Source: Undaria pinnatifida
Taxonomy: Eukaryota > Sar > Phaeophyceae > Laminariales > Alariaceae
Assembly (NCBI GenBank): GCA_012845835.1
Contig: JABAKD010000009.1
Coordinates: 11,585,785 to 11,649,784 of the forward strand
Length of the DNA: 64,000 nucleotides
Direction of reading: 5' to 3'
The translations under genes were made by a program, and so were the position numbers. A model generated the notes under the pieces. That model ran no database searches, was not told where the DNA came from, and saw nothing but the letters and a program-made list of their open reading frames with translations. Of this stretch, positions 17,770-46,101 are shown piece by piece (positions within the stretch are counted from its first letter, which is position 1; each line of letters opens with the position of its first letter).

Positions 17770-18661
17770 TCACGGAGCACTGAGCTGTCGCAGTGTTCTC
17801 GGGGCGCGCTGTAAAGTCTACTCTACGATGAGATGCTTTGATCGTCACTTGAGAGGTTTCGAATGACAATTGCTCTGTACTCCAGTCGAGGACACCTCCG
17901 AAGGCGCCCATGATGGTGTTATCGAGTAGCATAATGTCTGGCCCTAAAGAGGGCAATACGAGCGCTTCGACTGGTAGGGTAATATCTCCTAGCGTAAGTT
18001 GAAAGCGAACATATCCTAAAATTTTGAGAGGCGACCCATCAGCACTGCTGAGGTTGATTGCTCCCGGGGGCACTGCAAAATTTTGAGTGTCTTTCATTGT
18101 GGGATGTGTCTGTACAAAGTGAACAGATATGCATGATACATCGGTCGCGGTGTCAATTGTGACATTGTGCGCCGGATAGTCATTAACTCTGGCGTTTACT
18201 CGTACGCGCTTTGACGTAGAGTTGAGAGCTGTGGGATATTTGGGATACCCACTCATGGCAGACGCGTGGAAAGCATCAAAGTGCGTTTCCCGGTTAGCGT
18301 TGCATGATAATAAAACATGATGTTTAATTTTTTCTTTTAATTTGCGGGACACAGCAGAAACATACAACGCTTGTGGTACCATGGAAGGTGAAAACGTATC
18401 ATTCTGACCTTGACTACTCTTCTCGACTCTGCTTGCTGCTTCTACGGCTGGTCCAACTCCACGCGGTACTGCTAGAACACTCGGAACCTGCTGCTTATTT
18501 TCCAAGTCTGTTACAGTATTCGACTGGTTGTCTGCATGTACTTGTTTCGCATGGGTACTCGCCAGAGGGGTGGAGCTCTTTGTTCGGCCACACTTATCCC
18601 TCCTCTTACTACTAGGTCTACCGGCACTTGCCACGGCTACGCTAGCTGATCGTGCTATCAT
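17756..18661 (-). CDS. retropepsin-like protease of the Gypsy element
   Basis: An open frame of 301 residues between gag and pol. The N-terminal half is linker-like and polar. The protease fold follows, with the Asp-Thr-Ala active-site type IDTATDVSCIS (about residue 169) and a later hydrophobic ALVLPSLGPDIMLLDNTIMG segment (about 234-253) that fits the second conserved strand and helix. It matures Gag and Pol in the family. Its position between gag and pol, and its slight overlap with pol, fit the recoding that Ty3/Gypsy elements commonly use to make Gag-Pol. Confidence 0.8.
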   Translation of the reverse strand: MIARSASVAVASAGRPSSKRRDKCGRTKSSTPLASTHAKQVHADNQSNTVTDLENKQQVPSVLAVPRGVGPAVEAASRVEKSSQGQNDTFSPSMVPQALYVSAVSRKLKEKIKHHVLLSCNANRETHFDAFHASAMSGYPKYPTALNSTSKRVRVNARVNDYPAHNVTIDTATDVSCISVHFVQTHPTMKDTQNFAVPPGAINLSSADGSPLKILGYVRFQLTLGDITLPVEALVLPSLGPDIMLLDNTIMGAFGGVLDWSTEQLSFETSQVTIKASHRRVDFTARPENTATAQCSVNGHS

Positions 18662-18733
18662 TTCTACCGCGGGTTTGGTGATCCTAGTATGCCTACTTCC
18701 CGAACCGGTTTGAGGTAACCGGCGCGGGCCCCC

Positions 18734-20437
18734 TCACGGTTTTTTCGTGACTACTATGCCGTCACGCTCGTGCATTTTCGCCAGCCTGCAGTCCGGGCGC
18801 GAGTGCGAGCTGCGATGGCGACACATCGGGTAGTCGCATTCGTCGCCCGACGTTACTTTAGGCTTTCTGTTCCTACCCGTCTCACTACTTGACGACCTGC
18901 CTCGCTTGTCGGATGGGCCGTACGTGGCAGGTTCGAAGGTCACTTTGCGTTCCCGGCCTCGCGCCGCCGTCAGGTTGGACGTGATGGCCTTTTCAAGTTT
19001 GGCCATCGACGTCATCAGCTGTCGGTTGGGTCCAGGGGATGTGCCAGAGACGGCCGAAGCATACGTGGTCGGGGAGGGGGTTGGGGCCGCGCGTAAGGCG
19101 TTGGTCTCATGTTTTTTGGCGCGAGTCCGTGAGGCTTGGTACGTGAGGGAGGGGTCTTCGCGGATAAGTTCCAGGCGTACGTGCGGAACTAGGCCGGCTT
19201 CGAAGGATGCCATGAGCGATGTTTGCCATGCATGTTGGTATGGCGAGACGTTGACAGGAGCGGTTCGTATTGCTTCGGCTAGGAGGCGCGCGTATGCTTG
19301 AGTTACACGCAGTCCGTAAGAGTCGACGGATTCACTACTGCCTTGCTTTAGGGGAGAGACGGTGCGAGCGAGGAGGACGATGCGGTTTACGGGGCTAAAC
19401 AGATTTGTGAAAGCATCCACCCACTCCTTCCAGTTGCGTGGTGCTCTGACGTCTACCGCTTCCGTGTTCAGTTGGGCAAGCTCTTTGTCTGTGCGCCACT
19501 CTAACGTACCACACTGGATTTGGTTCATGGTGCTAGCTTCGTTGTCGGTCACTAAGTATGCCAGGTATCTCACGGCGTGGCGATCGATAACCGAGTCCGA
19601 GGCGCCGTCAGGGACGTGCAAGCGAATGTGAGCGTGAAAGAGCGCCATGATTTCGGGCACATCTTCAGTTGGCAACCCGTGCAACTTGAGCGAAGGGGGC
19701 ATATCCGATTTTTTTATCGAAAATTTTGGGTCTTCGTTGTGGTTGTGGTTTGGGCTCGGGGGTGCTACAGCAGAGGTTGTACGTGCTGTGCGAGGTGCTT
19801 CTACAGCAGAGGTTTTACGTGCTGTCAGGGGGTTTGTGGGCAGTGCTTCTACAGCAGAGGTGTTACGGGCTGTCGGAGGGCCTGGTTGAGAGTGGTCAGG
19901 GGGAGAGGTACGGCTGCTGTCAGAGCTACTCGACTGCTGTTGTATAGGCGTAGCAAGAGTCGTTGAGTGCTGCACGCGTTCAAAAACAACGTCGAGGTTT
20001 TGCTGCGGTTGCGGTACTCCTCTCACGTCATCGACCTTCTCGTCGGAAGGCCCACTCACAGGCTTCCGGCTGTCCGGCAGCACCATCTCCAAGACCCACG
20101 CCGGCGGCGTGGTGCCGTCGAGCATGCACTTCTTGAGGAACGCGGCGGTCTCGACGCGGACGGGGTCGTGGCTCGGAAGGGCGCTTGGCGCGGCAAGGAT
20201 GTCCTCTGCCAGGCTCGAGCCCTCCTCAACGGCTGATACAGGCGTCGTGCTCGGCGCACCAGCCTCATCTGCAGCGTCCCGCTGGTCCTCGTCGTCCACG
20301 GCCGGTCCGCCCTGGTTGGTGGGGGCGAGGGCCGCAAAAGAGTTCCCCGCCAGTGCGGGAGTCGGTTCCTCCGGAGAGGGCGATGCCTTGCGGGCCTTCC
20401 CGCGGCTCTTTTTTGAGCGAGCTCCTGAGCGTGGCAC
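18734..20437 (-). CDS. Gag of the Gypsy element
   Basis: A 567-residue open frame. The first 170 residues are Ala/Pro/Ser-rich low complexity. The middle (about 240-420) is the globular capsid-like part, with the typical helical WKEWVDAF and RLLAEAIRTAP segments. The C-terminal part is basic and carries a single Cys/His zinc-knuckle-like motif, C-x4-C-x5-H-x4-C, near residues 535-550. Gag forms the cytoplasmic virus-like particle and packages the element RNA in this family. It is the first gene after the 5' LTR, and its first Met lies about 80 bases inside the LTR edge. The frame looks complete. Confidence 0.85.
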   Translation of the reverse strand: MPRSGARSKKSRGKARKASPSPEEPTPALAGNSFAALAPTNQGGPAVDDEDQRDAADEAGAPSTTPVSAVEEGSSLAEDILAAPSALPSHDPVRVETAAFLKKCMLDGTTPPAWVLEMVLPDSRKPVSGPSDEKVDDVRGVPQPQQNLDVVFERVQHSTTLATPIQQQSSSSDSSRTSPPDHSQPGPPTARNTSAVEALPTNPLTARKTSAVEAPRTARTTSAVAPPSPNHNHNEDPKFSIKKSDMPPSLKLHGLPTEDVPEIMALFHAHIRLHVPDGASDSVIDRHAVRYLAYLVTDNEASTMNQIQCGTLEWRTDKELAQLNTEAVDVRAPRNWKEWVDAFTNLFSPVNRIVLLARTVSPLKQGSSESVDSYGLRVTQAYARLLAEAIRTAPVNVSPYQHAWQTSLMASFEAGLVPHVRLELIREDPSLTYQASRTRAKKHETNALRAAPTPSPTTYASAVSGTSPGPNRQLMTSMAKLEKAITSNLTAARGRERKVTFEPATYGPSDKRGRSSSSETGRNRKPKVTSGDECDYPMCRHRSSHSRPDCRLAKMHERDGIVVTKKP

Positions 20438-20496
20438 GTTTTGTTTCTATTTTTCCGACGACGAACTTTATATAGGGTTTTATATAGGTTTGTTGT

Positions 20497-21499: not shown

Positions 21500-22934
21500 A
21501 TGAGCTCAACAAACAAGCTGTGGAACGAAAGCACCGAAGGCAAGAAGAAGGCGGCCGAGTCTGAAGCCATGGGCAATATAGGACAGCCGCTCGATGGACA
21601 GGGTGCCGTGGCGGGGGGTGATGGGCCGACGGCTGACTCCGCGCAAACTGGAGAGGGTTCCCCGGGCACCGAAGGGGAGGCGCCGAAACATTGGATGCAT
21701 ATACACCTGTTGACTTTCGCGTTGTTCGGGCCGCTCAGCTCCCAGGACGACGCCCACCTATCCCTGACATCTTCAGACGGTCCCACATGGAAAGTTTCGA
21801 CTGCAGCGCCGCTCCCGCAACAAGGTGGACTCGTCCAGTGGGTCCGCGTCACCTGTTGCGTGCATCGAAAGCCCGGACTGCATAAAGCTGCTCGCACCGC
21901 CGAACACGAAGCTGAGCCGGCGTGAGATTCAAAAGGCCCAAAAGGCGGCAACCAAGATGGAGGAAGAGGGCGGGGGTACGCCGAAGGTGGTGGACGTCCT
22001 CCAGAGGCAGCACAACGAGCGGCAAGAGGAGGTGGGGAAAGCACTCGGGGACTGGCGGGAGTCACTGAAGAGGAAGGATATGGCGCGAAAGAAGAGGAAG
22101 CTGACCACTTAAGCGAGCATCAAACTGAAGCTGCATGACAGGAAAGTCCGGTCCATCCGACGCCAGAATAAGGCGAAGCTGGAGACTCAAAACAACCTCA
22201 TTAAGCGCCTGCAGGCACAGGTGGCACTCGCCATCGACACGGGAGACGACGAAGAGCTCGCTGCCGTGCGCAAAAAGCTAAAGGTGGCGCTAACAGCGGG
22301 AGTTGAACTTGAGGAGGCACCTGATCCCTTGCTCGAAGACTACGAGGCCGCTCTCTCGGTGAGCGCATTCGAGACGACGGAGGCGACGCCAACAAGTCCT
22401 GACCCAATGGCTGCCACACCTCCGGCGATTGGAACGGTAAGCGCCCCAAACGCCGAGAGCATAGACCGTACAGATATTGCGACAACGTCGTGGGGTGGCG
22501 TGCCCGGGTCGCCAAAAAAACCCGCAAGACTCGCCGTCGAGGGAAGCGGGTCTCCCCTCGGGATGGGCGCCGACGCCTGTCCGCGCAGCCCCGTCTTCGG
22601 TGACGGCGGCTACAACTTTAGGGGGGGGCATGACTGGGCCGAGGCCTGTCCGCGCAGCCTCGGCTTCGATGGCGGCAGCTACAGCGTTTGGGGGGAGCAT
22701 GGCTGGGCCGACGCCTGTCCGCGCAGCCCCGGCTTTGATGACGGCGGGTACAACGTTAGGGGGGGGCATATGGCTGGGCCGACGCCTGTCCACGCAGCCC
22801 CGGCTTCGATGACGGCAGGTACAGCGTTTGGGGGGGGCATGGCTGGGCCGTCGCCTGTGCACGCAGCACCGGCTTCGGTGACGCCGGCTACAACTTTAGG
22901 GGGAGGCCAACGCCTGTTCAAAAATACATTTTGA
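21500..22934 (+). pseudogene. decayed coiled-coil gene with C-terminal peptide repeats (left arm copy)
   Basis: Reading from an ATG at 21500, an acidic Gly-rich N-terminus is followed, in shifting frames, by a basic helical region beginning KLSRREIQKAQKAATKMEEE (about 21,911-21,970). After one in-frame TAA (22110-22112) the same frame goes on as a coiled coil (QNKAKLETQNNLIKRLQAQV, then LAIDTGDDEELAAVRKKLKV). The C-terminus is a run of about six 20-residue repeats such as AGPTPVHAAPASMTAGTAFG, encoded by the minisatellite. The basic cluster ARKKRKLTT looks like a nuclear signal. The stop and the frame changes are identical in the mirror copy, so they predate the palindrome. I recognise no family; it may be the cargo of an unknown element. 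Confidence 0.5.
22560..22903. repeat. minisatellite of about 60 bp units, left of palindrome centre
   Basis: About six GC-rich units of 55-62 bp, each with a G run after TTAGG or GTTTG, a GCTGGGCCGACGCCTGTCC-like block and a GGCTTCGATGACGGC-like block. It encodes the 20-residue Ala/Pro/Gly repeats of the decayed gene. Confidence 0.85.
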
Positions 22935-24358
22935 CGTTATGGCTCAGCCTTGCCCCCCCTAAAGTTGCAGTCGGCGTCACCGAAGCCGGGGCTGCGTGCA
23001 CAGGCAACGGCCCAGCCATACCCCCCCCAAATGCTGTACCTGCCGTCATCGAAGCCGGGGCTGCGTGGACAGGCGTCGGCCCAGCCATATGCCCCCCCCT
23101 AACGCTATACCTGCCGTCATCGAAGCCGGGGCTGCGCGGACAGGCGTCGGCCCAGCCATGCTCCCCCCAAACGCTGTAGCTGCCGCCATCGAAGCCGAGG
23201 CTGCGCGGACAGGCCTCGGCCCAGTCATGCCCCCCCCTAAAGTTGTAGCCGCCGTCACCGAAGACGGGGCTGCGCGGACAGGCGTCGGCGCCCATCCCGG
23301 GGGGAGACCCGCTTCCCACGACGGCGAGTCTTGCGGGTTTTTTTGGCGACCCGGGCACGCCACCCCACGACGTTGTCGCAATATCTGTACGGTCTATGCT
23401 CTCGGCGTTTGGGGCGCTTACCGTTCCAATCGCCGGAGATGTGGCAGCCATTGGGTCAGGACTTGTTGGCGTCGCCTCCGTCGTCTCGAATGCGCTCACC
23501 GAGAGAGCGGCCTCGTAGTCTTCGAGCAAGGGATCAGGTGCCTCCTCAAGTTCAACTCCCGCTGTTAGCGCCACCTTTAGCTTTTTGCGCACGGCAGCGA
23601 GCTCTTCGTCGTCTCCCGTGTCGATGGCGAGTGCCACCTGTGCCTGCAGGCGCTTAATGAGGTTGTTTTGAGTCTCCAGCTTCGCCTTATTCTGGCGTCG
23701 GATGGACCGGACTTTCCTGTCATGCAGCTTCAGTTTGATGCTCGCTTAAGTGGTCAGCTTCCTCTTCTTTCGCGCCATATCCTTCCTCTTCAGTGACTCC
23801 CGCCAGTCCCCGAGTGCTTTCCCCACCTCCTCTTGCCGCTCGTTGTGCTGCCTCTGGAGGACGTCCACCACCTTCGGCGTACCCCCGCCCTCTTCCTCCA
23901 TCTTGGTTGCCGCCTTTTGGGCCTTTTGAATCTCACGCCGGCTCAGCTTCGTGTTCGGCGGTGCGAGCAGCTTTATGCAGTCCGGGCTTTCGATGCACGC
24001 AACAGGTGACGCGGACCCACTGGACGAGTCCACCTTGTTGCGGGAGCGGCGCTGCAGTCGAAACTTTCCATGTGGGACCGTCTGAAGATGTCAGGGATAG
24101 GTGGGCGTCGTCCTGGGAGCTGAGCGGCCCGAACAACGCGAAAGTCAACAGGTGTATATGCATCCAATGTTTCGGCGCCTCCCCTTCGGTGCCCGGGGAA
24201 CCCTCTCCAGTTTGCGCGGAGTCAGCCGTCGGCCCATCACCCCCCGCCACGGCACCCTGTCCATCGAGCGGCTGTCCTATATTGCCCATGGCTTCAGACT
24301 CGGCCGCCTTCTTCTTGCCTTCGGTGCTTTCGTTCCACAGCTTGTTTGTTGAGCTCAT
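22918..24358 (-). pseudogene. mirror copy of the decayed coiled-coil gene (right arm)
   Basis: This is the inverted copy of the gene at 21500-22934, starting at an ATG ending at 24358 and running toward the palindrome centre. The same internal stop and the same frame changes are present. The C-terminal repeat tract differs from the left copy by a few substitutions, and its last residues are read through the 51-bp central spacer, so the two copies end in different short tails. Confidence 0.5.
22955..23290. repeat. minisatellite of about 60 bp units, right of palindrome centre
   Basis: Inverted counterpart of the array at 22560-22903, separated from it by 51 bp. Unit order is mirrored and a few units differ by single bases. 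Confidence 0.85.
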
Positions 24359-28680: not shown

Positions 28681-28787
28681 AAATAAAAAAGAGTTGGTCG
28701 ATGCCGGAACTTGACTTGTGGGAAAATATGAATCCGCATTTTTCCGGCGTAGACCCAAAGAAAAAATATATCCTCCGCAGCGCGAAC

Positions 28788-29286
28788 TTAAAAGGAGTCG
28801 TGGTGCCGGATGTTGGGAGGGAAGGGACGCAAGGGGTATCAGCTTCGCTTGGAGACAGCACCGGTTCTTCTTTGATTATTTCTTATTACTGGCGTTGAGC
28901 TATGAGAAGCTCGAAGGAGACAGGAAAGGGGAAGGAGTGAGAGCATGGGGGTGGGGTGAGGCTCACAGAGTTCGCTTCACCCTCCAGCATTGCTGCTGTG
29001 CTCTCTTCTGGACCTTTACCATGACGGAACGTACAAGAAACGTTCTCCTGGGTGTTCTATATTCCCAAGAGCGCTTAACGCGCTTACTTCTACCTATCTT
29101 GTCCAGAGGAGGACGTTCCATTACCGAGAACGTTCTTGTGGTATAAGCTAGCTATTCTCTACGGGTTATCCGCTTCACTAAGAATATTCCGTTTTAAGAG
29201 AATCTTCTTGTGACCAATAGAATAGACCGTAACTCTGCGGACTATCTTGCCGAATCTATTGCCCGCTATACCGACACTCTATTACA
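28788..29286 (-). repeat. 3' LTR of the NADAR-bearing element
   Basis: 499 bp. It is the partner of 39006-39501, with a few small differences, and the left GAAC copy precedes it. It contains two copies of an AACGTTCT-type inverted motif around an AGCGCTTAACGCGCTT segment. Confidence 0.93.
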
Positions 29287-31260
29287 TTAGCCCACCCTGA
29301 ATAGTCGTATATGCAGACCTGAAGACGGTCGAAAGATGACGACAAAGTTCATCCTAAAAGACCGGGAAAGGAGGTCGAAGATGCGGCTATTCGAAACAAA
29401 CACATGAGGCTATAGATTCCCCCACACCTCGTAATGAGGCCTAAACTCCAAGGATAGGGCTATTCACTAATAAAGCAGATCGCTAAAAGACAGGCCATAG
29501 GAAGAGAGAGGAAAACAGAAAACCCAGACTGGAGCAACCTATGTACAGTATGGAAAACTTGAAACCAAAAAGGAAACCTTAAGACAAAGGGAAGGCAGCT
29601 AAGAAAGGCAGATATCAAAGCGAAGGCAAAGAGGAAACAGAAACATATTTCCGGAGCGATCTATGTAGGACCCAGGGGGGAGCGAACGGAGAGTCGTTCG
29701 CCGTACAGGGTCGGTTACTCGAAAGCAAAGGGACATCACCCAAATTCGAAATTATATATGGCCGGGAGGCATTACGCGTAGCCGCGTGGCCGAGGCCCGA
29801 AGAAAATGAAAAGTAACACGTAAGGCAAAACGAACGCTGCTAGGTTGCCGTAAGGCTTGCTAAAACTAAGGGGCTGCTAGGACCACTTGGTAGAACGAAC
29901 AACGTGGCGACTTGGTAGGTCTGTTTGCGCTGGGAACAAAACCGGCAAACGTAGCAAGGTAACTCAACCAACACGAACAGAAAGTCAAGGTAGCCAAAGA
30001 GGTACGCGAGTTGATCGACCTAATTCGTTCAACACAGAAAAAATGTCAGCAGCGCTGAGCGACGGAGATAGCATGCCAAAACAACGCCTACAGGGGGGGT
30101 CGACTGGCGCGTCATATAGCGCAGAATGGCAACGCAACGTGTACACCTAGAAGAAAAAAAACAGGAACCAAAAGACTCATAAGAAAGGGAGAGCATAATT
30201 ACCGCCGTGATCGGGAAGTTCACGGGAACCTGAACACACTTCCAGGGGATCAACCGTGGCAGGAATATGATTACTGAGAATTCGGCAGTCATGCGGGGCG
30301 GTAAAAGCTACCGTGACCCAAACACGAAGAAAACACGAGAAGACAAAGAAAGAAAGAAAGGATGGTCGGCATTCCGGTGGTCTTGCAAGTCTGCAAGGCT
30401 GCCCGGGCCCTACTTGGCAAAGTGCGCAGAAAACCGATCAGGCCTAGAGCTCGGCGATGCCGTCAGGGCAAAGCGGCACCGGCGGCGGTCAGGATACAAC
30501 ACAAAGATCGAGCGCCTAGGGGCAAAATCACCGAGTATCGGCGGAGGAATCGTGAAGTACAAACACAAAAAGAAAACGAGACGACCACGGTTCGGAAGCC
30601 TGGACGAAACGAGACTAGCGGAGACCGTAGTGGTAGAGAAAAAACAAAAAAAAACATAAAAAAGAGGGGGGGAGGAACACCTTAACACACCCTAGGTACG
30701 AGGCGGTCCTGGTTCGATAGCCATCACGGAGTGGGGCAAAGGAAGACCGGGTCGTCAGACGGGCGTACCTAAAACACTGCATACTGCAGAAAATTATTAA
30801 TACCGCTCTACCACCACGAGTTGTCAGCCGTCACGGAGTGGGACAGACGGAATCGATGGTGGTGAGAAAAAGAGGCAAACGCTGGTATGAAGAACAAACC
30901 AAAAGCGGAGGTATTGCGAGGGACACCTCAATGTTAAAACCAAATTCAAAGCCTGATAACGGTTGTAGGCCAACCACGAGAAGACATGACGAAAAAAAAA
31001 AACACTCTATTAATAGGTGGGAAGAATGACCACGATAATACCACTAAAGTTACTGCAGGTTGAAGGCTGACTATGAAGAATCATTCCCAATGCTACCGTA
31101 GGTGAAAGGCCTAACCATTAGGTAGTACTATCAAAGCTGTTGTAGAAGGCTGACCGTGAAGAACTAATCCCAAAACTACTGTAGAATAACCAAAAACAGA
31201 TAAAACACCCGAAACTAACCAATGGGGGGAGTTGGAACGGTAGGGGCACCGCGGGAAGCA
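29287..31260. other. long untranslated 3' region of the NADAR-bearing element
   Basis: About 2 kb between the integrase tail and the 3' LTR. The plus strand is A/G-rich. Loose repeats are visible: CACGGAGTGGG near 30,726 and 30,833, and GGCTGACC/GGCCTAACC-type units near 31,060-31,180. Short plus-strand open frames (for example 29,887-30,150 and 30,267-30,659) are Lys/Arg-rich and look like by-products of composition. I see no env-like gene. Confidence 0.5.
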
Positions 31261-31329
31261 TCAGAATTCCGTAGCACCCCACGGGATAGGCTCCCATGCC
31301 CATGGCGTTGAAGGGCACCACGATCCGGA

Positions 31330-33140
31330 GACGGCGTTCCGGGCGGTAGTGTAGCGAGCTGGCTGGAGGTCGATCTTGATCGGGCCGGGGTCGTCTAGGA
31401 ACCTGATTATGTAGGAACTACCCGGGGAAGGGTCTGGGGGGGTTCGCGAAGAGGCGTCCGGTGGCGCGCGGTGAGCGGTCTTGCCTAGCCACCAGAGGCC
31501 GTCACGTGCCTTGTACCAAACGTGTGCCCCGGAGGGGAGGGTGGAGTTTCTGAAATTGCGAAGCCAAAGGTCGCGGGGGACCAGGGTGTAGCCGGGGGCG
31601 AGGAAGAATTGGCCTTGAGATCGGGAGAGCTCGCGGTGTGCGGCGCCGATGCGCATCTGGCGGTAGAGGCGGTTGGTCTGACGGTGTTGTGTCGGCTTCC
31701 CGGACCAGTAGAGTAAAATATGGCGCCTTAAGTGTTGGAGGTCGAGCTCGCGTTCCCACGAGGGGCTGAGGATTCCGGTCCAGTGGGTCTCGTATAGAAC
31801 GGCGATGACTCCGCCGCGGCCGCGTACGAGTTGGTGGCCGGTGATTTGCTCAACCCCAAGGCGCTCCGGTGGTGGTGTGACGTCGTCGAGGGTGACGTGG
31901 TAGGGGGGGGACTTGGCAGCGGAAGCTGTGAGGACGCATGTTGTGAGGTCCGCTGGTAGGTGCTTGGGTATATCGCTGGTGTCGTCGGGGTTGTGGCAGG
32001 GCTTGCACCGTTTGACGGAGACGCGTGGTTTGGAGTCCCGTCCCGGAAGGTCTGAAGGTAGATCGAGGAAAAGCAGCTTGTCTTGTAGCGGCCGGTTGTC
32101 GGGGGTGTCGGAGGCTGCAGTCGGGCCCACCGCGAGGATCTTGAAAGGCCCGTTCCAGTTCAACGAGAGTTTCGTCTTCAGAACGGTTGCGTCGGTGCCC
32201 TTCTTGGCACCCTGGCGGATAGTGGAGGCGGAGTTGTAGACCCAGGCCCAGCCGCCAACGGAGAAAGGGGGGGAGGCGAGGAGGGCGGCCATGATGGGCG
32301 CGTTGCGGCGTTGTAGACGCGAGACGGTGAGTCGGTGGAGCTCTCGGACGAGGGAGTAGGCGCGTTGTTGCCGATCGGTGGCAAGGTTGATGTAGACTAG
32401 GTGGTCGCGATCCAGGCTCTGGTGACCGCCGATGTTTTCGGGTTCGAAGACCGAGAGCGGGAGGCGTGGTAGGCGGCCGATGTGGATCTCGTTGGGCGCC
32501 AGTCCGGTGGCGGCGTTGACAGAGTTGTTGTAGGCCGCCGACACGTGCGGCAGTAGCACGTCCCAGTCGGTTTGCTTTTCGTTGCCAACCATGGAGAGCA
32601 TCTGGGCCAGAACATGGTTGACCCGCTCGACGCCGCTGTTGGTGCAGGGGTGATAGGCGCTGGTGTTGACCTTGCGGATGCCGACGCGGTCGTAGACGAT
32701 GGTTGCCAGCTTGGATGTGAATTGTTGACCATTGTCGGAGAGGAGCGTCACCGGGCACCCCCAGAGAGGGATGTACTCGTTGAGCAGGATGTCGGCAGTT
32801 CCGGCGGCCGTGAAGTTCTCTGCCGAGACAGCGAACATGTCGGCCCGGCGGCTGAAGCGGTCGGTAAATGAAAGGATGTGCACGTTCCCGCGCGGTGTGA
32901 GAGGTAGGGGCCCGAAGTAGTCGACGCTGACGGTGATGCCAGGGCCGTTGGGTAAAGGAAGGGAGAGGGTCGGCCAGCGAATGGTGTGTCGGGAGGTCTT
33001 GCGCGCCTGGCAGTGAAGGCAGAGGCGGATCCACCAGCGGGCGGAGACGTCCATGCCGATCCACCAGTAAAACCGTGCCAGCATGCGAACCGTCCGGGTA
33101 ACTCCAAGGTGTAGGGAGGTGTCGGCGTGGCATGTGTTCA
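31330..33140 (-). CDS. integrase and C-terminal tail of the NADAR-bearing element
   Basis: The zinc-binding HHCC region lies at about 33,000-33,135 (H...H...CLHCQ). The catalytic core includes SVDYFGPL, LLSDNGQQF and CTNSGVERV. A Tudor/chromo-like tail follows at about 31,330-31,550, with VWYKARDGLWWLGKTA, RFLDDPGPIKIDLQPARYTT and SGSWC. From memory, similar W-W-x-G-K...FLDDPGPIK...GSWC tails occur in oomycete Gypsy elements; I could not check this. Confidence 0.85.
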
Positions 33141-34189
33141 GCACCCAGGGGCGCATCAGCATTGGAACGTAGACGCGGGGGGGATAGGGTGCGGGTGGCG
33201 GGAGGCTGTTCCCGGGTTGAGATGTTGGTGGTCGTTAGACTAGGAGGGCTGTTTCGTCGTCAGTGCGGTGGAGTCTGCCTTTGGCGGCAAGTGCGAGGAC
33301 GTCGGAGAGTAATGGGCGCTGGGCCGAGGGGATGGAATCCAAGAGGTCAGCCGGCGGCGGAGAAGGGGAGTCCAACGATAGGAAGCGGATGGCGGCGTAG
33401 CACACGGGCTCTGCGCGTTGTTCGCGCGCCCAGTCTTTGTAGGTGTAGCGCTCAACGCGGGCGAGGAGGTGGGGGTCGATGTTGAGGTCGACAACAGGAT
33501 CCGGGAGCAGAAGTGGCGGTGTTGATGGGGACGTCGGAGAAGTGGTCGAAGGAGGGGCCGGTCTTGGTGCGGTTGGTGCGGGTGACGCGGGCGGCGTGGG
33601 GACGGCAGCTGGAGGCGTTGTAGTAAGGGGAAGCCTTGGTTGGGCCCCGGCCGGGGGCGTGTGCGGTCGACGGGTAGATGTAGATCTTCTGGATACGGTT
33701 GGTTTCGGACGGCGTCCGAACCCATAGTCTGCGGTAGGTCGGGGGTTTCCCGCGGCGGCGGCGGCGCGATGGCGGGTCCGTGAAGAGATCAGACCAGAAG
33801 GCGGTGGTTCCGTGGCGCCAATGGTGGACAGCGGGAAGACGACGGGTGGCCTGGAAGCCGAACCAGGAGGAGCGCCGGTGTTCACGGCGGCATTCTCGGA
33901 GCTGACGAGAGGCCTGGCGGTGGAGTCGCGGGTCGAAATAGGCCCGACGAAGTTGTTGGGGATGCCGTGGTGCTCCATGCGTGGTCCCAGCAGGCGGAAG
34001 TCGGTATAGTCGTCGGCGGTGAAGGGAAGAGGCTGGATTGTTGGAATGGGTCTTGAAGGGGGGGACACGAGCCCACCCAAGCCGATACCCGGTGTAGGCG
34101 GCTCGTTCGGTGCGAAGCCGCAGGGGCGGGTGAGGTAGATGCCAACAGTGTCCGGGCCAGTGAGGCGGTTGCGTCCGGTGCGGTCGGCG

Positions 34190-35470
34190 TCGGTGGCTGG
34201 TTGTGGTAGGCGTGAAAGGAAGTCGGCGTTGCCGTTGGCCGTACCTTTGCGGTACTTCAGTGTGTAGTTGTAAGCCGAAAGGAACTCGAGCCAGCGCCGG
34301 ACGCGAGCATTGTGCTCGCCAACCTTGGCGATGTTCTCGAGCGCCTTGTGGTCCGAATAAATTTCGAAACGAGTGGACCACAGATGCCCGCGTAGTCGCT
34401 TGATCGCCCAAACGATGCTGCCGGCCTCGAGGTCGAGGGGTGTCCATGAACGTTCGGAGTCCAGAGTGGCGCGGCTGATGTAGATTATCGGGCGGACGGA
34501 GCCGTCAGGTTGTTCCTGCTCGAGGGTCGCTCCAAAGCCGTCGATGCTAGCGTCGCAGTAGAGGCGGAAAGGGCGGGAGTCGTCGGCGACGGCGTCCCAG
34601 TCGGGGTAGACGAGGATCGGTGGCTCGGTAAGTTCGTGGAGGATGGCGCGGATGGTGGCTTCCATGGCGGGGGTGAAGTCGAAGGTGGCGCCCTGCTTGA
34701 GTAGAGCGTTGATGGGGCGAAGGCGTCTGGAAAGGTTTGGTAGGAACTTGCCGTAGTAGTTGATGCCTCCGAGGAGTGATCGCACCTGTTTCTTGTCGGT
34801 GGGCATGGGTATTCTGGTGAGGGCGGCGACCTTGTCGGAGTTGGGGCTGTAGCCGCCAGCGGAGATGGTGCGCCCCAGGAAGTCGGCGGTTGTGGCGCCA
34901 ATTTTGGCCTTGGAGGGAGAAAGTTTGAGGTGGTGCTTACGGAGGCGACCAAAAAGGGCTCGGATGTTGGCGACGTGGTCGGTGGGGTCAGGGTCGAAGA
35001 CGATGATGTCGTCGAGGTACGCGGCGACGCGTTCCAAGCCTTTGATGACCTCGTTGATGATCTTAACGAACCAACCAGGGGAGGCACTGCTGCCTTGCGG
35101 CATCACAAGCCACTCGAAGAGCCGGTCTGGCGTGCAAAACGCCGTCAAAGGGATGGTATCCTTGTCGATGGTGATTTGGTGGAACGAGGAGACCAAGTCG
35201 AAGAGGGAGAAAATGCGCCCTTTTCCTAAAGAATCGAGGACCTCGTCAACGCGGGGGATGGGAAGCTGTCCGAGGGAGCTGATGGCGTTCAGCTTTTTAT
35301 AGTTGATGGTGATGCAGACACCGCCGTCCTTCTTCGGGATGGCGACCATGGGGCTGGAGTAAGGTGAGGTCGAATGCTGAATCAAGCCGGCGGCCAGGTA
35401 CTGGTCGAGGACGGCGTCGGCCTTTTTGGCAAGGATGGGGTTGATCCTGTACGGGCGAGAGGTAACTGGT
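34190..35470 (-). CDS. reverse transcriptase and RNase H region of the NADAR-bearing element
   Basis: The reverse transcriptase (about 34,730-35,470) shows PYRINPILAKKADAVLDQYL, the YKKLNAISSLGQLPIPR segment, FEWLVMPQGSSASPGWF and the YLDD box. The RNase H (about 34,190-34,570) begins FRLYCDASIDGFGATLEQEQ and includes the SDHKALE segment. Order and spacing are those of Ty3/Gypsy Pol. A Pro/Thr-rich linker of about 330 residues separates RNase H from the integrase, much longer than usual. Confidence 0.88.
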
Positions 35471-36236
35471 TCGCTGTCCGGAGGTACGGTGATCTTGAAC
35501 GGCATCAATGAGCACGAGCCGAAGTCGGTCTTGGAGGTGGAGAAGACGTCCGGAAACTCGCAGAGGACATCTCCCAGGCTGTCGATCACCGATGGGGACC
35601 ATCCGGAACCGTGGAGGTCGAAGATGATGTCGCGCAGATGCGGCGGCAGACGGTCCCAGAGGTTGAGGAAGCTAGTTCGTTGATCGGTGTCGAGGCGTGC
35701 AAGGAGCTGTGGGCACGGGGCTGTCGGTGGGTCGTGGGGATCGGCTGGTGGGGGGTTCTCGCTGGCCACAGGAATGTTGTCGTGTAGGGCATGTACGCCC
35801 GGCGTAGGCGGAGGGGCTGGGGGGTCCAAAGAAGGGTGCCCAAGGGTGGCTAGTGGTACTTGCACCAGCGGGGAGAGGGAGGTTCCGAGGAGGTCGCCCG
35901 GTTCGAGATCGGTTGATCCTGACAATGGGATAGTCTGGTGTCCGTCGGAGACGAAAATTACCTTGTCGGTGAGAAGGTCCTCGCGGGGGGCATGTTGACC
36001 ATGTACTGCCCGGTAAACGCCGGGGCGCCTGACTGGCGCACGAGGTTGACCTTGATGAGCTTCGGCGAGGAGGAAAGCGAAATAACTTTCGTGCCGGCGA
36101 ACCGAAGGTGGTAGACGTCGTCGGTGTATCGGTCGTCGGGAATGAAGGCGGAGGCCCTGTTGGTGTCGTGGTGGTGCAGGGAAAGTTCGCCCAGGGTCGG
36201 TTGGGGGGGCTGGTGTGGCAGCTGGGGCTTTCGCGG

Positions 36237-36644
36237 GAGCGTGGTATACGAACGTCGCTCGAAGCGCATCCAGCTATCTCGCCCCAAGAGGATGGGATGC
36301 TGCATAGTTCCAGCGGGAACGACGCAAGCCCATACTGCCAGGGCGGCGGTGGGGGTTTGGTGGTGCTTAAACTGGATGCTTAAGCGGATGGAAACGGAGG
36401 TGGAGAGGGGAGTCGAGGTTCCGAAACCTCCCCATGAACGAGGTGAGTTCTGTCGCTCGCACTCATCCGTTGCTGACCAGGACGCCTTCAGTTGTTCCAC
36501 GGCGGCGGCGGTGATGAACGACTGAGGGGAGCCTGCGTCGAGCAGCGCCACGAGTTTGCAGCGTTTGGCGGCGGTAGGTCCGCTGTGGACTAGTACTTCG
36601 GTCGTGAACGACGCGTCGTCGACAGTTAGGATGCCGCTTGTAAG
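36237..36644 (-). CDS. retropepsin-like protease region of the NADAR-bearing element
   Basis: Follows the NADAR domain after a Pro/Thr-rich linker. It shows the strand-turn LVALLDAGSPQSFITAAAVE, with the Asp-Ala-Gly type active site used by some Gypsy proteases, and downstream hydrophobic strands including VWACVVPAGTMQHPILLGRD. Maturation of the element polyprotein is the family role. Confidence 0.7.
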
Positions 36645-36926
36645 GCACGGTCCATGTTCTGGTATTGTCGGCGCGGTAGTAGCGGGGTATAGGTTGGTTG
36701 CGCCGTCGACGGCGGAGACCTGAGCGAAGTGGCTGCTGGGCAAGGCGTCCGGGGTGGAGGGTGGCAGAAGGAGTCCAAGCGGGGTACTCGGCGTTTGTTG
36801 AAGGGGGAAGGGGCTTGTCTCGTGGATGCCATCTGCGGTGGGGAAGACCCGGCTGGCGTCGGTGGTGGTGGGTGTTGGCTCAGCGGAGCAGGGGGCGAGG
36901 GCGCTTGTGGCGTGGAGGCTTGAGCG

Positions 36927-37382
36927 AAGGCGTTCGCGGAAGTCCATAAGTAGCCGGCCTAGCAGGTTCCGACCGCGCCAGCGCGCCCTTTCGCAGGCAA
37001 ACGGGTGGTCGGCCCTATAGCCGATGCCCCAGACGAGGTCGTACGGGCTGGCCTCAGCGATGTGCTTCTCGCCAGTTGCCTCGAGCGCTTGTTGTAGGTC
37101 CGGGTTTTGGCTGAACTTGCAGAAGTTGGTGTTGAGGACGATGTCGTAGCGGTGTCGCTCCCAACACTCCTGGCCGAAGCCGGACACGGTGCGTCCAAGA
37201 GATTTCTGGTCGGCGGGGTCGGGGGTGGTTCGGATGCGAAGCTCTGTCGCGGTGTCACCGAAGAGCGCAGCCTTCTGCGCCATCATCATCTGTTCGGCGC
37301 AGTTGTACGTGACGCTTTCGTACTCGATGTCGCACAGGTACCACTGTGAGAAGACGGACGAGGAGTTCCAGAAGAAATGGAA
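36927..37382 (-). CDS. NADAR (YbiA-like) domain inside the retroelement polyprotein
   Basis: About 150 residues within an otherwise Pro/Ser-rich polyprotein region. Seen in order: FHFFWNSSSVFSQWY, YNCAEQMMMAQKAALFGD, DQKSLGRTVSGFGQECW, NFCKFSQNPDLQQALEATG, IAEASPYDLVWGIGY and RWRGRNLLGRLLMDFRERL. These match the NADAR pattern of an N-terminal F/W...S.F, a central EQ.....KA, LGR......W, KF..NP.L...L..TG, EASP.D..WG.G and W.G.N.LG..LM..R blocks. All blocks are present and none is visibly lost. Family members hydrolyse N-glycosidic bonds, in riboflavin intermediates (bacterial YbiA) or in ADP-ribosylated guanine. In this element the domain lies directly upstream of the protease. Function here is inference. 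Confidence 0.9.
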
Positions 37383-38330
37383 AGAATCCGGGGGGTCCGC
37401 GATGTCATGTGCTGGCGAGGGCGAGTCATCGGAAGGGTGTTGCAGGGGTGGGTGTCGGCGATTGTTGGTAATGTCGCCGTGTGGCGTTGTCGGGGGTAGA
37501 GTCAGGTCCGATCGGGCGGTGCTGACTTGAACGCCCGAGTTCGCGGGGGAATTGCTCGGCAAAGCCGAGGTACCGGGAGGGTCCACGCGGTGGCGCGCAC
37601 GCTGGGCGGGGATACCCTGAAAGGTCCTGTCTTCAGGCGTTTGGAGAGCAGGGCTGTACTCGCTAGGGCATGCAGATCCTGTGGCCCGAGTCCACGCAAT
37701 GCGTGAAGCCGGCGAGGATGACGGGGCAGGGTGCTCAGAGCATGTCCTGGTCGACTGTGATCGCGAGTCTTCCATCTGTACGAAGGGGCTGTCCCTCGAG
37801 CTCAGGGACAGTGGTGCTGTCAACACCGTGGCAGCGAGTGGGAAACCGTCATTCGCGGGCCCAACGTTGCCACTAAAAGGGCGCACGTCCTGTGACGAGC
37901 GGGTGAGCAGTGGCCAATCTGGGGTCGAGGCGGGCTCAGGGGGCGATGGCCCGGTAGACGAAACAGCCGTTTCGTGCGAACCGGAACCGCTGGTAGTCGT
38001 AATCGTCGAGACTTCGCCCAGGTTAGCAATGTCTGGAATCTCAGCGATAGTCGGCAGGTAGCGTTGCACATCGCGGAAAGGCGTCGAGTGGAGCATCCCA
38101 GTAGGGCTCGACGTCTTGGCCTCCTCCCGCCCACACCTCAAGGCAATCACTGGAACAAGAGGATCAGTGCTTGAACAAGTGGTTGGGGTTCGGGCTGGGG
38201 TAGGGGGGGGGCGTAGGGGGACAGGGGGCAGGGGGTTGTGACGCACGTGGTGTACTCGGGCGTCTTGAGACCCGGTCTTCGCAGCAAGTGCTGTTGGCGG
38301 AGATGCTGCAGTTGCTCCACCACCGGCTCT

Positions 38331-38972
38331 TCAGTTGGTGCGAAAGGTGCCCGGTTGTCGTTGATTGGGGTTGGTCGCGTTATTATTGCCGATCCGCATG
38401 TTCGACGGGGCGGCGGCTGGGGGGGCATAGGTCGCCGGGTCGTGTACCGTCATGGCTGTCGACTGCGATGCGGCGGCGGCGCGACGATGTTGAAATTGCT
38501 GCCCTTGCAACTGTCGGTTGCCGTTGTCGTGGGAGCGGCTGTTGTCGTGCGAGCGGCCGTTGTCGTGGGAGCGGCCGTTGTTGTGGCGTCTGTTGTTGGA
38601 GCGTCCGTTGTTGCCCCGGTGTTGGTTGGAGTGGTCGTGGTTGTAGCGGTTGTTGTTGTTGTTGGCGCCCCGGTTGTTGTTGTGGTAAGTGCCCCCACGG
38701 TTGTCGTTACGGTGGGCGTAGCGGTTGGAGTTCCGGTTGACGTTGTGCTCGTACTGGCCCCGGCGGTAAGAACGCATCCGTTGTTGCCATTGGCGGTAGG
38801 CGTGGCCGCCATCGTGCAGCTGGCCAAGTGCAGGGTTGAGGATGCCGGATATGTTGATGAAGTCCTGGGGGCAGGTCTTCATGCTGTGATCCGTACCGTT
38901 GCAGTTAAGGCGATGTCCACCGTGAGCGCGTAGGGCTTGAGCACGGGCCGAGAAAACCCATTGTGATTTCAC
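38331..38972 (-). CDS. Gag-like nucleocapsid region of the NADAR-bearing element
   Basis: Begins almost at the primer-binding site. Near the N-terminus is a zinc-knuckle-like CNGTDHSMKTC (C-x4-H-x4-C), followed by an Asn/Arg/His-rich low-complexity tract encoded by a GTTGTC/GTTGTT-type minisatellite on the plus strand. Such basic tracts bind RNA in nucleocapsid proteins. No capsid-like helical domain is visible, which is unusual for a Gag. Either the capsid has been lost or it is too diverged to see. Confidence 0.55.
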   Translation of the reverse strand: MKSQWVFSARAQALRAHGGHRLNCNGTDHSMKTCPQDFINISGILNPALGQLHDGGHAYRQWQQRMRSYRRGQYEHNVNRNSNRYAHRNDNRGGTYHNNNRGANNNNNRYNHDHSNQHRGNNGRSNNRRHNNGRSHDNGRSHDNSRSHDNGNRQLQGQQFQHRRAAAASQSTAMTVHDPATYAPPAAAPSNMRIGNNNATNPNQRQPGTFRTN

Positions 38973-38974
38973 GC

Positions 38975-39002
38975 GCAGGTTCGAGTCCTACCGACGACGC
39001 CA
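38975..39002 (-). other. primer-binding site matching a tRNA T-arm and CCA end
   Basis: On the plus strand, three bases from the LTR, the sequence reads as the 3' end of a tRNA: GGTTCGAGTCC (T-loop), an acceptor strand and a final CCA at 39000-39002. The complementarity spans up to 28 bases, longer than the usual 8-18, and includes the T-loop. The particular tRNA cannot be named without the genome's tRNA set. Confidence 0.8.
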
Positions 39003-39005
39003 AAT

Positions 39006-39501
39006 TGTAAAGGAGTCGTGGTGCCGGATGTTGGGAGGGAAGGGACGCAGGGGTATCAGCTTCGCTTGGAGACAGCACCGGTTCTTCTTTGATGATTTCT
39101 TATTACTGGCGTTGAGCTATGAGAAGCTCGAAGGAGACAGGAAAGGGGAAGGAGTGAGAGCATGGGGGTGGGGTGAGGCTCACAGAGTTCGCTTCACCCT
39201 CCAGCATTGCTGCTGTGCTCCCTTCTGGACCTTTACCTATGGAACGTACAAGGAACGTTCTCCTAGGTGTTCTATATTCCCAAGAGCGCTTAACGCGCTT
39301 ACTTCTACCTATCTTGTCCAGAGGAGGACGTTCCATTACCGAGAACGTTCTTGTGGTATAAGCTAGCTATTCTCTACGGGTTATCCGCTTCACTAAGAAT
39401 ATTCCGTTTTAAGAGAATCTTCTTGTGACCAATAGAATAGACCGTAACTCTGCGGACTATCTTGCCGAATCTATTGCCCGCTATACCGACACTCTATTAC
39501 A
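39006..39501 (-). repeat. 5' LTR of the NADAR-bearing element
   Basis: 496 bp, TGTAAAGGAG...CTATTACA on the plus strand, thus with TG/CA termini. The second GAAC copy is at 39502-39505. Confidence 0.93.
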
Positions 39502-39989
39502 GAACCCATGCGGCCACGAGGCAACGACTCTATTATTGCTGTTGTTCCCTATGCACCGGGACGATCGATCATCGCTAGGTATCGTTTGAGCGCCTTTAAT
39601 CGTAGCTGGGAGGGAGGAAAGAGTTGCACTCCCTGTAGGTCCCATTTGTTGCCAGCAACGATCATGATGGTGGCCTCCCGCCCGAGATCCGACAACGACA
39701 AAAAACAAAAAAAAAACATGTCATATGATGAGTGAGACGCTCGGCTCGGCCAAGATATTTATTGTTTTAGCGGCAATCCGTTGTTCCCACCGCCGACCAA
39801 ACAACAACTCACCTTTTTCTCACAGGGATCTCCAGCTGGCTGGTCGGCTGCTGCGCTGGTGAATTCGTTCACCGCAGGACAGGTGTTTGAAGGCTAGTCG
39901 AGGCATCTCCGTCTCGCAGGCTGGTCACAAAGAAGGATCGTTGCGACTCCTTTCCCCAAGAGAGACGCCCCCCGTCCGGCTCTCTCCTT

Positions 39990-43436: not shown

Positions 43437-44120
43437 TTATATATTGGACAGAGTGATGCGTGTACGACTAAACTTGCCAACGGCACTCGTACTGCACTTT
43501 GAGCTATCTGCTGTGGTTCTGGTTGCTACTAGTTGCTGCTGTATGTGCTAGAAGTTTCGCCCTTCGGCTACTGCTGCTGCACCTGATGTTGTGTGTTTGC
43601 CAATGTTGCCAGTTGGCGTTCATGCTCGTCGTACATACTGCTGTTCTCACCCAGTACGTACGGGTTTCCTCGTACCTCGACGGCACGACGACGAGCTCAA
43701 AACAGAAGGGAGGTGACATGAAATGGCATGGACAATGGCCACATAGAGGCGAGCACAGCGGGATAGTTCGCTGCGAATCAACCGCACTCGTTCATGCCTA
43801 CAGCAGAGGCTGCCTGGAGTGTCAGCGGCCGTGCTAAAGCCAAGGCCAAAGGCCGAAGAGACGGCTCTTCTACCTGCTTGAGATGCTGTTATATATAGAC
43901 TATTGGACAGAGTGATGCGTGTACGACTAAACTTGTCAACTGCACTCGTACTGCACTTTGAGCTATCTGCTGTGGTTCTGGTTGCTACTAGTTGCTGCAG
44001 TATGTGCTAGAAGTTTCGCCCTTCGGCTACTGCTGCTGCATGCACCTGATGTTGTGTGTTTGCCAATGCCGTCAGTTGGCGTTCATGCTCGTCGTACATA
44101 CTGCTGTTCTCACCCGGTAC
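43437..44120 (+). repeat. direct duplication of about 230 bp, 452 bp apart
   Basis: Copies at 43,437-43,664 and 43,889-44,120 both start near ATTGGACAGAGTGATGCGTG and run through TTCGCCCTTCGGCTACTGCT to CTGCTGTTCTCACCC, with a few substitutions and a small insertion. The 225 bp between them is unique. It may be a local duplication or the terminal repeats of a very small element. Confidence 0.75.
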
Positions 44121-44211
44121 GCAAAATTCCAAACATAATCACGTACCGTTTGGAAATGATGCCAATTTTGTAAATCATTCAGGCGTTGCAGCCATTAAGA
44201 TTCAACAATTT

Positions 44212-44643: not shown

Positions 44644-45584
44644 CCGTAATTGTGCGAGTCATCGCACCCCCGTGCGATCGATTTTTAAATGATTTCTAAC
44701 TTTGATTTTTATCGCGCAGGGGTGCGATAACTCCGGCATGTGTGATGACCCCGGCCCCTATGCGGAAAATGATTTGATTTCCCGTTCTGACGCACACCCC
44801 TGTGCGGTAACTCCGACATGTGTGACTCTGAACAAATCACACACCCTGCCATGCTGTGATGTGAACGCACACCCCTGCAGGCTGCGCGGTAACTCCGACA
44901 TGTGCGATTCCGAGCAAATCAAACACCCTGCCTGCCGTGCTGTGATGTGAACGCACACCCCTGTGCGGCCGACATGTATGTGCGATACGGAGGAAACCAC
45001 ACCCCCCACTCACACTGCTGTACTGGTGGCGCACCTTTTGAACGTCCTCCCTGTGCGATACCTAACTCTACTACTATGTGCTACACGGAACACACCCCTG
45101 GGGTGGAAATTGAGTTGTCGGCTACCGTCGTTCCGTTGCATGATGAGGTACATACAGCAGTACTAGGTAGGTCAGCACCGCAGCGTGGCAGGGCCGGTGG
45201 TACTTTTTTTTTTTTTGGTGCGGTCGCCGAATAAAAGTTAACAGAAGCGAGAGTTTTTTTTCATGAATGTATGATATGCACCTACTACCTGCTACAAACA
45301 GCGGTGAGCCCCGGTTACAAACCGCTAGAAAAACGGATCGTGGCACAATTTTTATCCTGAGGTCACACGCCACAGCATGCAACCTCACGCTCGAAGGTGG
45401 CACCAATATCGGAGCCAATATCGGAGTCATCGCACCCCTGTGCGATGACTCCGACCCCTGTGCGGAAAATGAATTAAATGATTCCAAACTACTTGCAAAA
45501 TTAACGCACAGGGATGCGATGACTCCGGCATGTATGTGCGATGACTCCGGCCTATCTATGCTATGACTCGCACAACAATTACGG
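44644..45584. mobile_element. TA-flanked inverted-repeat element (941 bp), no transposase
   Basis: It begins CCGTAATTGTGCGAGTCATC and ends with the near reverse complement, flanked by TA (44642-44643 and 45585-45586). The terminal motif GTGCGAnnnCTCCG recurs many times inside, in units of about 90 bp near 44,790-44,960 and again near 45,428-45,560. It shares the CCGTAA tips and TA duplication with 26913-27782, so both are probably one superfamily, mobilised in trans. Confidence 0.75.
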
Positions 45585-45651
45585 TAGTCCCATGTGCCTT
45601 GGTGTGACTCCCTGACCCATAGACTAGGTAAGTTGTAGGAGCAGTACGTAC

Positions 45652-46067
<416 letters not shown>

Positions 46068-46101
46068 GGTCAACTGCAGGAGCAAGCAGTAAGTACAATA
46101 A

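Follow-up and report, generated by a model that had tools for sequence, protein, structure and literature searches.

A YbiA-type NADAR domain with retained active-site residues in the Pol polyprotein of a Ty3/Gypsy-type retrotransposon of Undaria pinnatifida

Why should a retrotransposon carry a NADAR domain, and is the domain a chance inclusion in one copy or a working part of a lineage? We addressed this question in a 64,000-nucleotide stretch of the genome of the brown alga Undaria pinnatifida (hereafter the window), where a first-pass annotation had described a Ty3/Gypsy-type element that had captured such a domain. NADAR-bearing Gypsy elements are already published, having been described in Ectocarpus sp. 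7 with Gypsy-12_Ec32 as an example (Genome Biol. 2025;26:320, PMC12477816), and a search of mostly non-subscription papers for work linking the NADAR domain to transposable elements, or YbiA to retrotransposons, returned this paper alone. What we add here is a divergent member of the group, the retention of its active site, and the brown-algal neighbours of these domains on a NADAR tree. Proteins recovered in our searches are cited by handles of the form P0059.

The domain itself was readily identified on the minus strand at 36927-37388, corresponding to residues 315-468 of a 790-codon open frame. It covers the Pfam profile PF08719 from end to end (1-163/163; 162.8 bits against a cut-off of 35.1, E=1.1e-47) and also matches TIGR02464 with 140.8 bits against a cut-off of 73.7, so that the uninterrupted block of about 150 residues noticed earlier at 36927-37382 was borne out with a marginally larger extent. 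Direct sequence matches to solved structures were found for the NADAR of Phytophthora nicotianae (8BAU, E=8e-17) and for E. coli YbiA (2B3W, E=2.5e-05). An AlphaFold2 model computed from a 101-row alignment reached a pLDDT of 96.2, while a run on the single sequence (pLDDT 32.4) was discarded. When this model was compared with the PDB using Foldseek, 11 matches were returned, of which only 8BAU (TM 0.88) and YbiA (TM 0.81) had E<=0.001, with the remaining nine at E of 5.4 or more. The YbiA fold is therefore present in the predicted model, and the folds are alike even though the window domain is only 30% and 27% identical to 8BAU and 2B3W, respectively. These profile, sequence and structure matches, which include the PF08719 and structure comparisons that had been suggested as a check, rule out a chance resemblance. 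The last strand of the domain further indicates its subfamily, since this strand carries Glu in YbiA, Asp in BC4488 and His in phage NADARs (PMC11543638), and the window has Glu at residue 426 of the frame, the equivalent of E125 in the P. nicotianae protein (codon at 37053-37055, minus strand).

The element surrounding the domain is bounded by two long terminal repeats on the minus strand, a 5' LTR at 39006-39501 (aligned to its partner over 39009-39501, and reading TG...CA on the plus strand) and a 3' LTR at 28788-29286 (aligned over 28791-29286). The outermost bases of the two repeats differ (TTAAAAGG vs TGTAAAGG), and they share 98.387% identity over 496 aligned columns, with 5 mismatches and 3 gap openings. 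Both are flanked by the target-site duplication GAAC, read directly at 39502-39505 and 28784-28787 and only four bases long. Three bases inward of the 5' LTR lies a primer-binding site of 31 bases at 38972-39002 (minus strand; GGTTCGAGTCC ... GCCA), which we take, from the general tRNA pattern, to be the complement of a tRNA-like 3' end; the window itself yielded neither a tRNA gene to pair with it nor any Rfam family.

The frames between the repeats described here all read on the minus strand. The first, of 790 codons (35958-38330), comprises a variable N-terminal part, the NADAR domain, a linker and an aspartic protease region (35961-36671). The protease region has no Pfam match, can be aligned with that of relatives and contains LLDAGSPQSFI, which we presume to be a protease-like motif. 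A second frame at 33235-36273, in a different register from the NADAR and protease part, encodes reverse transcriptase (RT; 34864-35340, PF00078, E=9.6e-25) and RNase H (34270-34584, PF17917, E=3.1e-28). Behind a stop and in frame with the RT part follows the integrase frame (31261-33234), with its H2C2 domain at 32995-33168 (PF17921, E=1e-13) and its core at 32647-32946 (PF00665, E=4.1e-08). The LTRs, the primer-binding site, the four-base target duplication and the order protease, RT, RNase H and integrase are those of a Ty3/Gypsy element, and because the LTRs flank all of these features, the NADAR domain lies inside the element. The proposed position directly upstream of the protease also holds, the two domains sharing one frame. 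In the four frames of the element, Pfam recognized NADAR and pol domains only, and no ADP-ribosyltransferase of the kind whose gene adjoins NADAR in DarT1-NADAR toxin-antitoxin pairs. About 2 kb (29287-31260) separate the integrase frame from the 3' LTR, and on the strand of the element 30000-31260 contains no frame of at least 100 amino acids.

The insertion holding the NADAR domain is fairly recent and the copy is damaged. In place of a complete Gag, a frame at 38331-38987 (minus strand) retains a zinc-knuckle region in which residues 92-164 of P0165 match 38966-38760 (E=4e-12), and the first cysteine, aligned by eye, seems to have been replaced. With only five bases between the start of this match (38966) and the primer-binding site, a capsid part could not fit ahead of it, and the zinc-knuckle region is all of Gag that remains in this copy. 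Among relatives, P0117 has a long stretch before its NADAR that appears Gag-like by eye, in which Pfam detects no Gag domain, and the N-terminal parts of P0117 and P0070, both called Gag-like by eye and of a kind that diverges fast, gave nothing convincing when sought in the rest of the window (E=0.029 at best). The zinc-knuckle frame is cut off from that of NADAR by a stop. Protease and RT lie in different reading frames, which overlap at 35958-36273, and a further stop precedes the integrase. In P0059, whose RT segment is 92% identical, the end of the protease, RT and integrase follow in one piece, as do linker, protease and RT in P0109, and the frame change and the stop before the integrase therefore look like lesions of the window copy. 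The NADAR part of this copy is free of lesions.

Elsewhere in the window, a second Gypsy element lies at 14002-20446 on the minus strand, with RT, RNase H and integrase in a single 1255-amino-acid frame and a Gag-like frame in which PF03732 falls under its cut-off. We used this element as a control, and Pfam found no NADAR at E<=0.01 in three of its frames. In addition, the window contains a long inverted repeat formed by two facing frames of 273 and 275 amino acids, near-identical by eye (22113-22934, plus strand, and 22918-23745, minus strand), a direct duplication at 43442-44121 with units about 460 bases apart and 95-98% identical, a very long TAA/TTA trinucleotide microsatellite at 45556-46069, and an open frame at 3534-4934 (plus strand) that is presumably a piece of a PIF1-type helicase.

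If the domain had entered this copy alone, its relatives should generally lack it. A protein search with the RT part gave 393 matches among 7992 candidates scored, and we analysed the best 120 of these 393. NADAR was present in 24 of the 120, which supplies the association of pol with NADAR in other genomes that the first-pass annotation had proposed to look for. Its position before the protease is common to many of these relatives. Most of the listed proteins (87/120) have neither NADAR nor an alignable protease start, and nine have the protease start without NADAR; the majority of those lacking the domain are too short on the upstream side to include it. Where the best 120 of 393 have at least 130 residues before the protease, 13/16 carry NADAR, and where they have at least 200, 6/8 do. 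Of the nine that lack it, six have fewer than 130 residues upstream; the others are P0172 (150 residues, an N-terminal stretch resembling nothing else here), P0095 (830 residues, what looks like a fused gene model carrying PF14214) and P0101 (260 residues), which looks like a true NADAR-less relative. Related copies without the domain had been named as the outcome pointing to a one-off insertion; asked of proteins from other contigs, this outcome was seen in three of the 16 informative relatives and not in the other 13. A capture by the window copy alone is accordingly rejected, so that the original description stands in that the domain belongs to the element, with the difference that many relatives carry it too.

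All listed pol relatives with an organism name came from Ectocarpus sp. CCAP 1310/34 (49-71% identity), several of them with NADAR, and the NADAR-bearing P0072 and P0074 represent 415 and 126 proteins, respectively, clustered at 90% identity. A separate search of 5.8 billion proteins with the NADAR stretch gave 58 matches of 916 candidates, some of them bearing pol, as recognized by Pfam in P0054 and P0056 and by a protease match in P0004, P0009 and P0018. In P0084, only the first part of NADAR seems, by eye, to be left before the RT part, an instance of decay in single copies. Six pattern matches in viral contigs suggested relatives of pol, none of which was confirmed; 23 loci in such contigs (L001-L023) encode NADARs 38-49% identical to that of the window, and by tblastn none of them has pol of the window element.

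We then built a pol tree from the window, 72 of these relatives that aligned over 400 residues or more, and one distant outgroup. All 19 NADAR-bearing rows, the window included, fell within a clade of 69 rows (SH-aLRT 99), outside which P0101 was placed. This clade divides into branches of 30 and 39 rows (SH-aLRT 100 each) with 10 and 9 NADAR-bearing rows, respectively, and in the 30-row branch the window stands with P0065, P0117 and other proteins of Ectocarpus sp. CCAP 1310/34 that bear NADAR. The pol of the window is 90% identical to that of P0059 over 465 columns, followed by path length by P0060, P0063, P0062 and P0065. The NADAR label is scattered over this tree, requiring 18 changes, with 443/500 shuffles as low. 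Such scatter is to be expected if most rows without the label are incomplete upstream, and the pol tree by itself is for this reason no proof that NADAR has been retained. The simplest reading is that NADAR was probably gained once in the lineage, before the two main pol branches split.

Retention can also be approached through the conservation of the domain, for which we used protein identity per domain as a proxy for selection. Across the 15 pairs formed by the window, P0072, P0071, P0068, P0064 and P0074, identities were 46-86% for NADAR, 41-82% for the protease, 52-96% for RT and 52-92% for RNase H, and the NADAR value equalled or exceeded that of the protease in 13 of the 15 pairs, the two exceptions both involving the window. 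Between the window and its listed relatives, counting matches over more than 85% of each segment, median identity was 46% for NADAR (n=11), 48% for the protease (n=20), 57% for RT (n=105), 63% for RNase H (n=92), 70% for the integrase (n=10) and 28% for the hinge (n=50), while no match to the linker or the N-terminal part covered more than 85% in any of the 120 listed relatives. Had the domain been a passenger, it should have drifted as the linker has.

The residues of the predicted active site point the same way. In the description of the P. nicotianae structure, ADP-ribose is surrounded by 11 named residues (PMC11543638), which we mapped with a numbering offset of two, all 11 fitting the printed 8BAU stretch. 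The window keeps 9/11 of these contacts, namely E43 (codon at 37293-37295), K50 (codon at 37272-37274; both minus strand, by alignment to the P. nicotianae NADAR), K75, R79, W89, R93, E125, D130 and W133, and replaces Y84 by Phe and D86 by Gln. In a set of 34 complete or partial NADARs linked to pol, with each domain counted only at the positions it covers, E43 is kept in 21/24, K50, K75 and R79 each in 28/29, W89 in 29/29, E125 in 30/30, D130 in 31/31 and W133 in 29/31. Y84 is found in 0/29 (Phe in 28), D86 in 0/29 and R93 in 15/29, with Cys in 13. The commonest residue averages 0.87 at the 11 contact positions vs 0.72 elsewhere in these domains. These counts indicate that the catalytic core has been kept and part of the rim has not, and the state of R93 and D86 suggests that binding may differ. 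The earlier impression that the domain is better preserved than an unused passenger is thus upheld, with contact residues kept and conservation about like that of the protease.

To ask where the domain came from, we built a tree of 88 NADARs, consisting of complete domains thinned by identity together with the 8BAU stretch. The NADAR of the window pairs with that of P0267 (100/100), with which it also shares, by eye, the stretch before the domain. The tree sets this pair, whose internal branch measures 0.65, apart from the remaining retroelement NADARs in a split of 28 vs 60 rows (97/81). Apart from P0267, the NADARs of its own lineage are 40-50% identical to that of the window, which is closer to free-standing NADARs, the named ones being bacterial (52-53% for Nannocystis punicea). 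Within the window's subfamily, the NADAR sits on a long branch, whereas the pol does not. The retroelement label requires three changes on this tree, and a single origin appeared in 0% of 200 bootstrap trees from a bootstrap that had not settled. One clade of all retroelement NADARs was nevertheless not rejected, either with (p-AU 0.305) or without (p-AU 0.324) brown-algal proteins. Since the pol of the window is nested in the NADAR-bearing clade, we take one gain followed by fast change as simpler than a separate capture; a separate gain or a swap of NADAR in the window's subfamily is a possible alternative.

Five free-standing NADARs from brown algae and three proteins without an assigned setting join the remaining 18 retroelement NADARs in one group (97/74, a node under the starring limit), and the five adjoin one of the two retroelement branches (97/88). 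These five are P0197, P0210, P0229 and P0295, named as from Ectocarpus sp. 13, E. fasciculatus, Pylaiella littoralis and Scytosiphon promiscuus, together with P0227 from EukProt, all gene models of 209-252 amino acids without pol. Four of the five have a Cys/His-rich N-terminal stretch, nameless in Pfam in the two that were scanned. They nest with the other retroelement NADARs and not with that of the window. Likewise, grouping these 18 to the exclusion of the host proteins was not rejected (p-AU 0.467). The Ectocarpus study suggests a bacterial source for the domain, on the ground that blastp outside Ectocarpus gave almost only bacteria (PMC12477816). For the bulk of the lineage, the free-standing brown-algal proteins raise the alternative that the host supplied the domain or domesticated it. 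A direct bacterial donor is possible, and the tree is compatible with transfer from element to host as well as from host to element.

What, then, might the domain do? NADARs of the YbiA type and the oomycete NADAR hydrolyse guanine-ADP-ribose, those tested from bacteria, an oomycete and a phage remove ADP-ribose from guanine, and such proteins have been purified and assayed (PMC11543638, PMC11125620); E. coli YbiA has been described as acting on riboflavin intermediates, so that the substrate in the element may be a different one. Taking this activity together with a place like that of dUTPase in other polyproteins, we favour a clean-up enzyme: the window element is a damaged, fairly recent Gypsy copy whose NADAR would be, in its lineage, a working, particle-borne N-glycosidase or ADP-ribosyl hydrolase that cleans the nucleic acid of the element, a reading to which we give somewhat better than an even chance. 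The lineage carries its YbiA-type NADAR after the zinc knuckle of Gag and before the protease, so that the domain would be made as part of Pol and reach the particle with protease and RT. There it could cut N-glycosidic bonds between base and (ADP-)ribose at the place of reverse transcription, and could remove ADP-ribose or damaged nucleosides from the RNA, the cDNA or the nucleotide supply of the element. To the element this may be of benefit in the way that betaretroviral dUTPase, from the same slot, keeps uracil out. The adducts might come from host defence, from stress or from side reactions.

In the first of four other readings, the host marks guanines of foreign RNA or cDNA with ADP-ribose and the NADAR of the element removes the mark. 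NADARs do reverse guanine ADP-ribosylation and act as bacterial antitoxins (PMC11543638, PMC11125620). The lysine equivalent to K115 of E. coli C7, which is needed against DarT1 in cells, is present in the window and in 28/29 relatives. The window NADAR also matches the PADLOC model PDC-M42C (E=1.7e-37), and it reaches 41 of 240 bits against the NCBIfam model of a NADAR family anti-phage protein, far below its cut-off. A match in a defence library, however, says nothing of counter-defence, and this reading assumes a transferase system in the host, which leaves it unlikely in our view. We know of no brown-algal nucleic-acid ADP-ribosyltransferase. Bolder, and less likely again, is the idea that brown algae ADP-ribosylate retroelement guanines as a defence, that particles carry NADAR as the eraser, and that the long branch of the window's subfamily would record the resulting race. 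If true, this would be the first conflict over nucleic-acid ADP-ribosylation between a eukaryote and a retroelement, no earlier one being known to us.

The domain might instead hold its ligand without catalysis, binding ADP-ribose, NAD-capped RNA or an ADP-ribosylated host protein for packaging or targeting. The phosphate- and ribose-contacting residues are kept, as such a module would need, and Gypsy lineages of Ectocarpus carry chromatin-reader domains (PMC12477816). Yet retention extends beyond the binding residues to the catalytic E125 equivalent, which is Glu in every relative that covers the position, and we regard binding alone as improbable. Slightly less likely still is processing of the RNA of a transposition intermediate, which the Ectocarpus authors propose by analogy with the NADARs of RNA viruses in the same paper that reports NADARs in ORF1 of oyster Tx1 LINEs (PMC12477816). 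A comparable ORF1 may be represented by P0058, a protein of 725 amino acids with a distant NADAR (27% identity) near its C-terminal end. We hold this proposal doubtful, as the cited portions of these papers report no NADAR that cuts RNA. A neutral passenger, in the sense of a gene fragment picked up on one occasion and retained by accident, is very improbable: P0101 does without NADAR and the window copy has other lesions, which indicate that this copy is not itself under selection as a whole, but the presence of NADAR in both pol branches, the retention of its residues and its protease-like conservation all argue against it.

To return to the clean-up enzyme that we prefer, additional enzymes maintained by retroelements, dUTPase among them, hint at dangers to reverse transcription. 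Finding NADAR with its catalytic residues in both branches suggests a danger of this kind in the host from ADP-ribose, or a comparable N-glycosidic adduct, on nucleic acid. To our knowledge, nucleic-acid ADP-ribosylation in this host has not been characterised.

Taken together, the window element can be set against three known systems. Compared with the published NADAR-bearing Gypsy lineage, by way of the listed Ectocarpus proteins, it belongs to another subfamily. Gypsy-12_Ec32 is stated to have a C-terminal chromodomain on its integrase (PMC12477816); over 31261-33234 of the window, a Pfam scan at E<=0.1, which may miss weak chromodomains, found none. Both 8BAU and 2B3W are small proteins in their own right, whereas the domain in the window is part of Pol. 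The closest parallel in arrangement is with betaretroviruses, where dUTPase lies N-terminal of Pro (PMC1224870), and fungal chromoviruses with dUTPase are mentioned as well (PMC2774666). The dUTPase is unrelated to NADAR and the likeness is one of place and probable purpose only, in that both polyproteins would set an enzyme of nucleotide hygiene on the N-terminal side of the protease.
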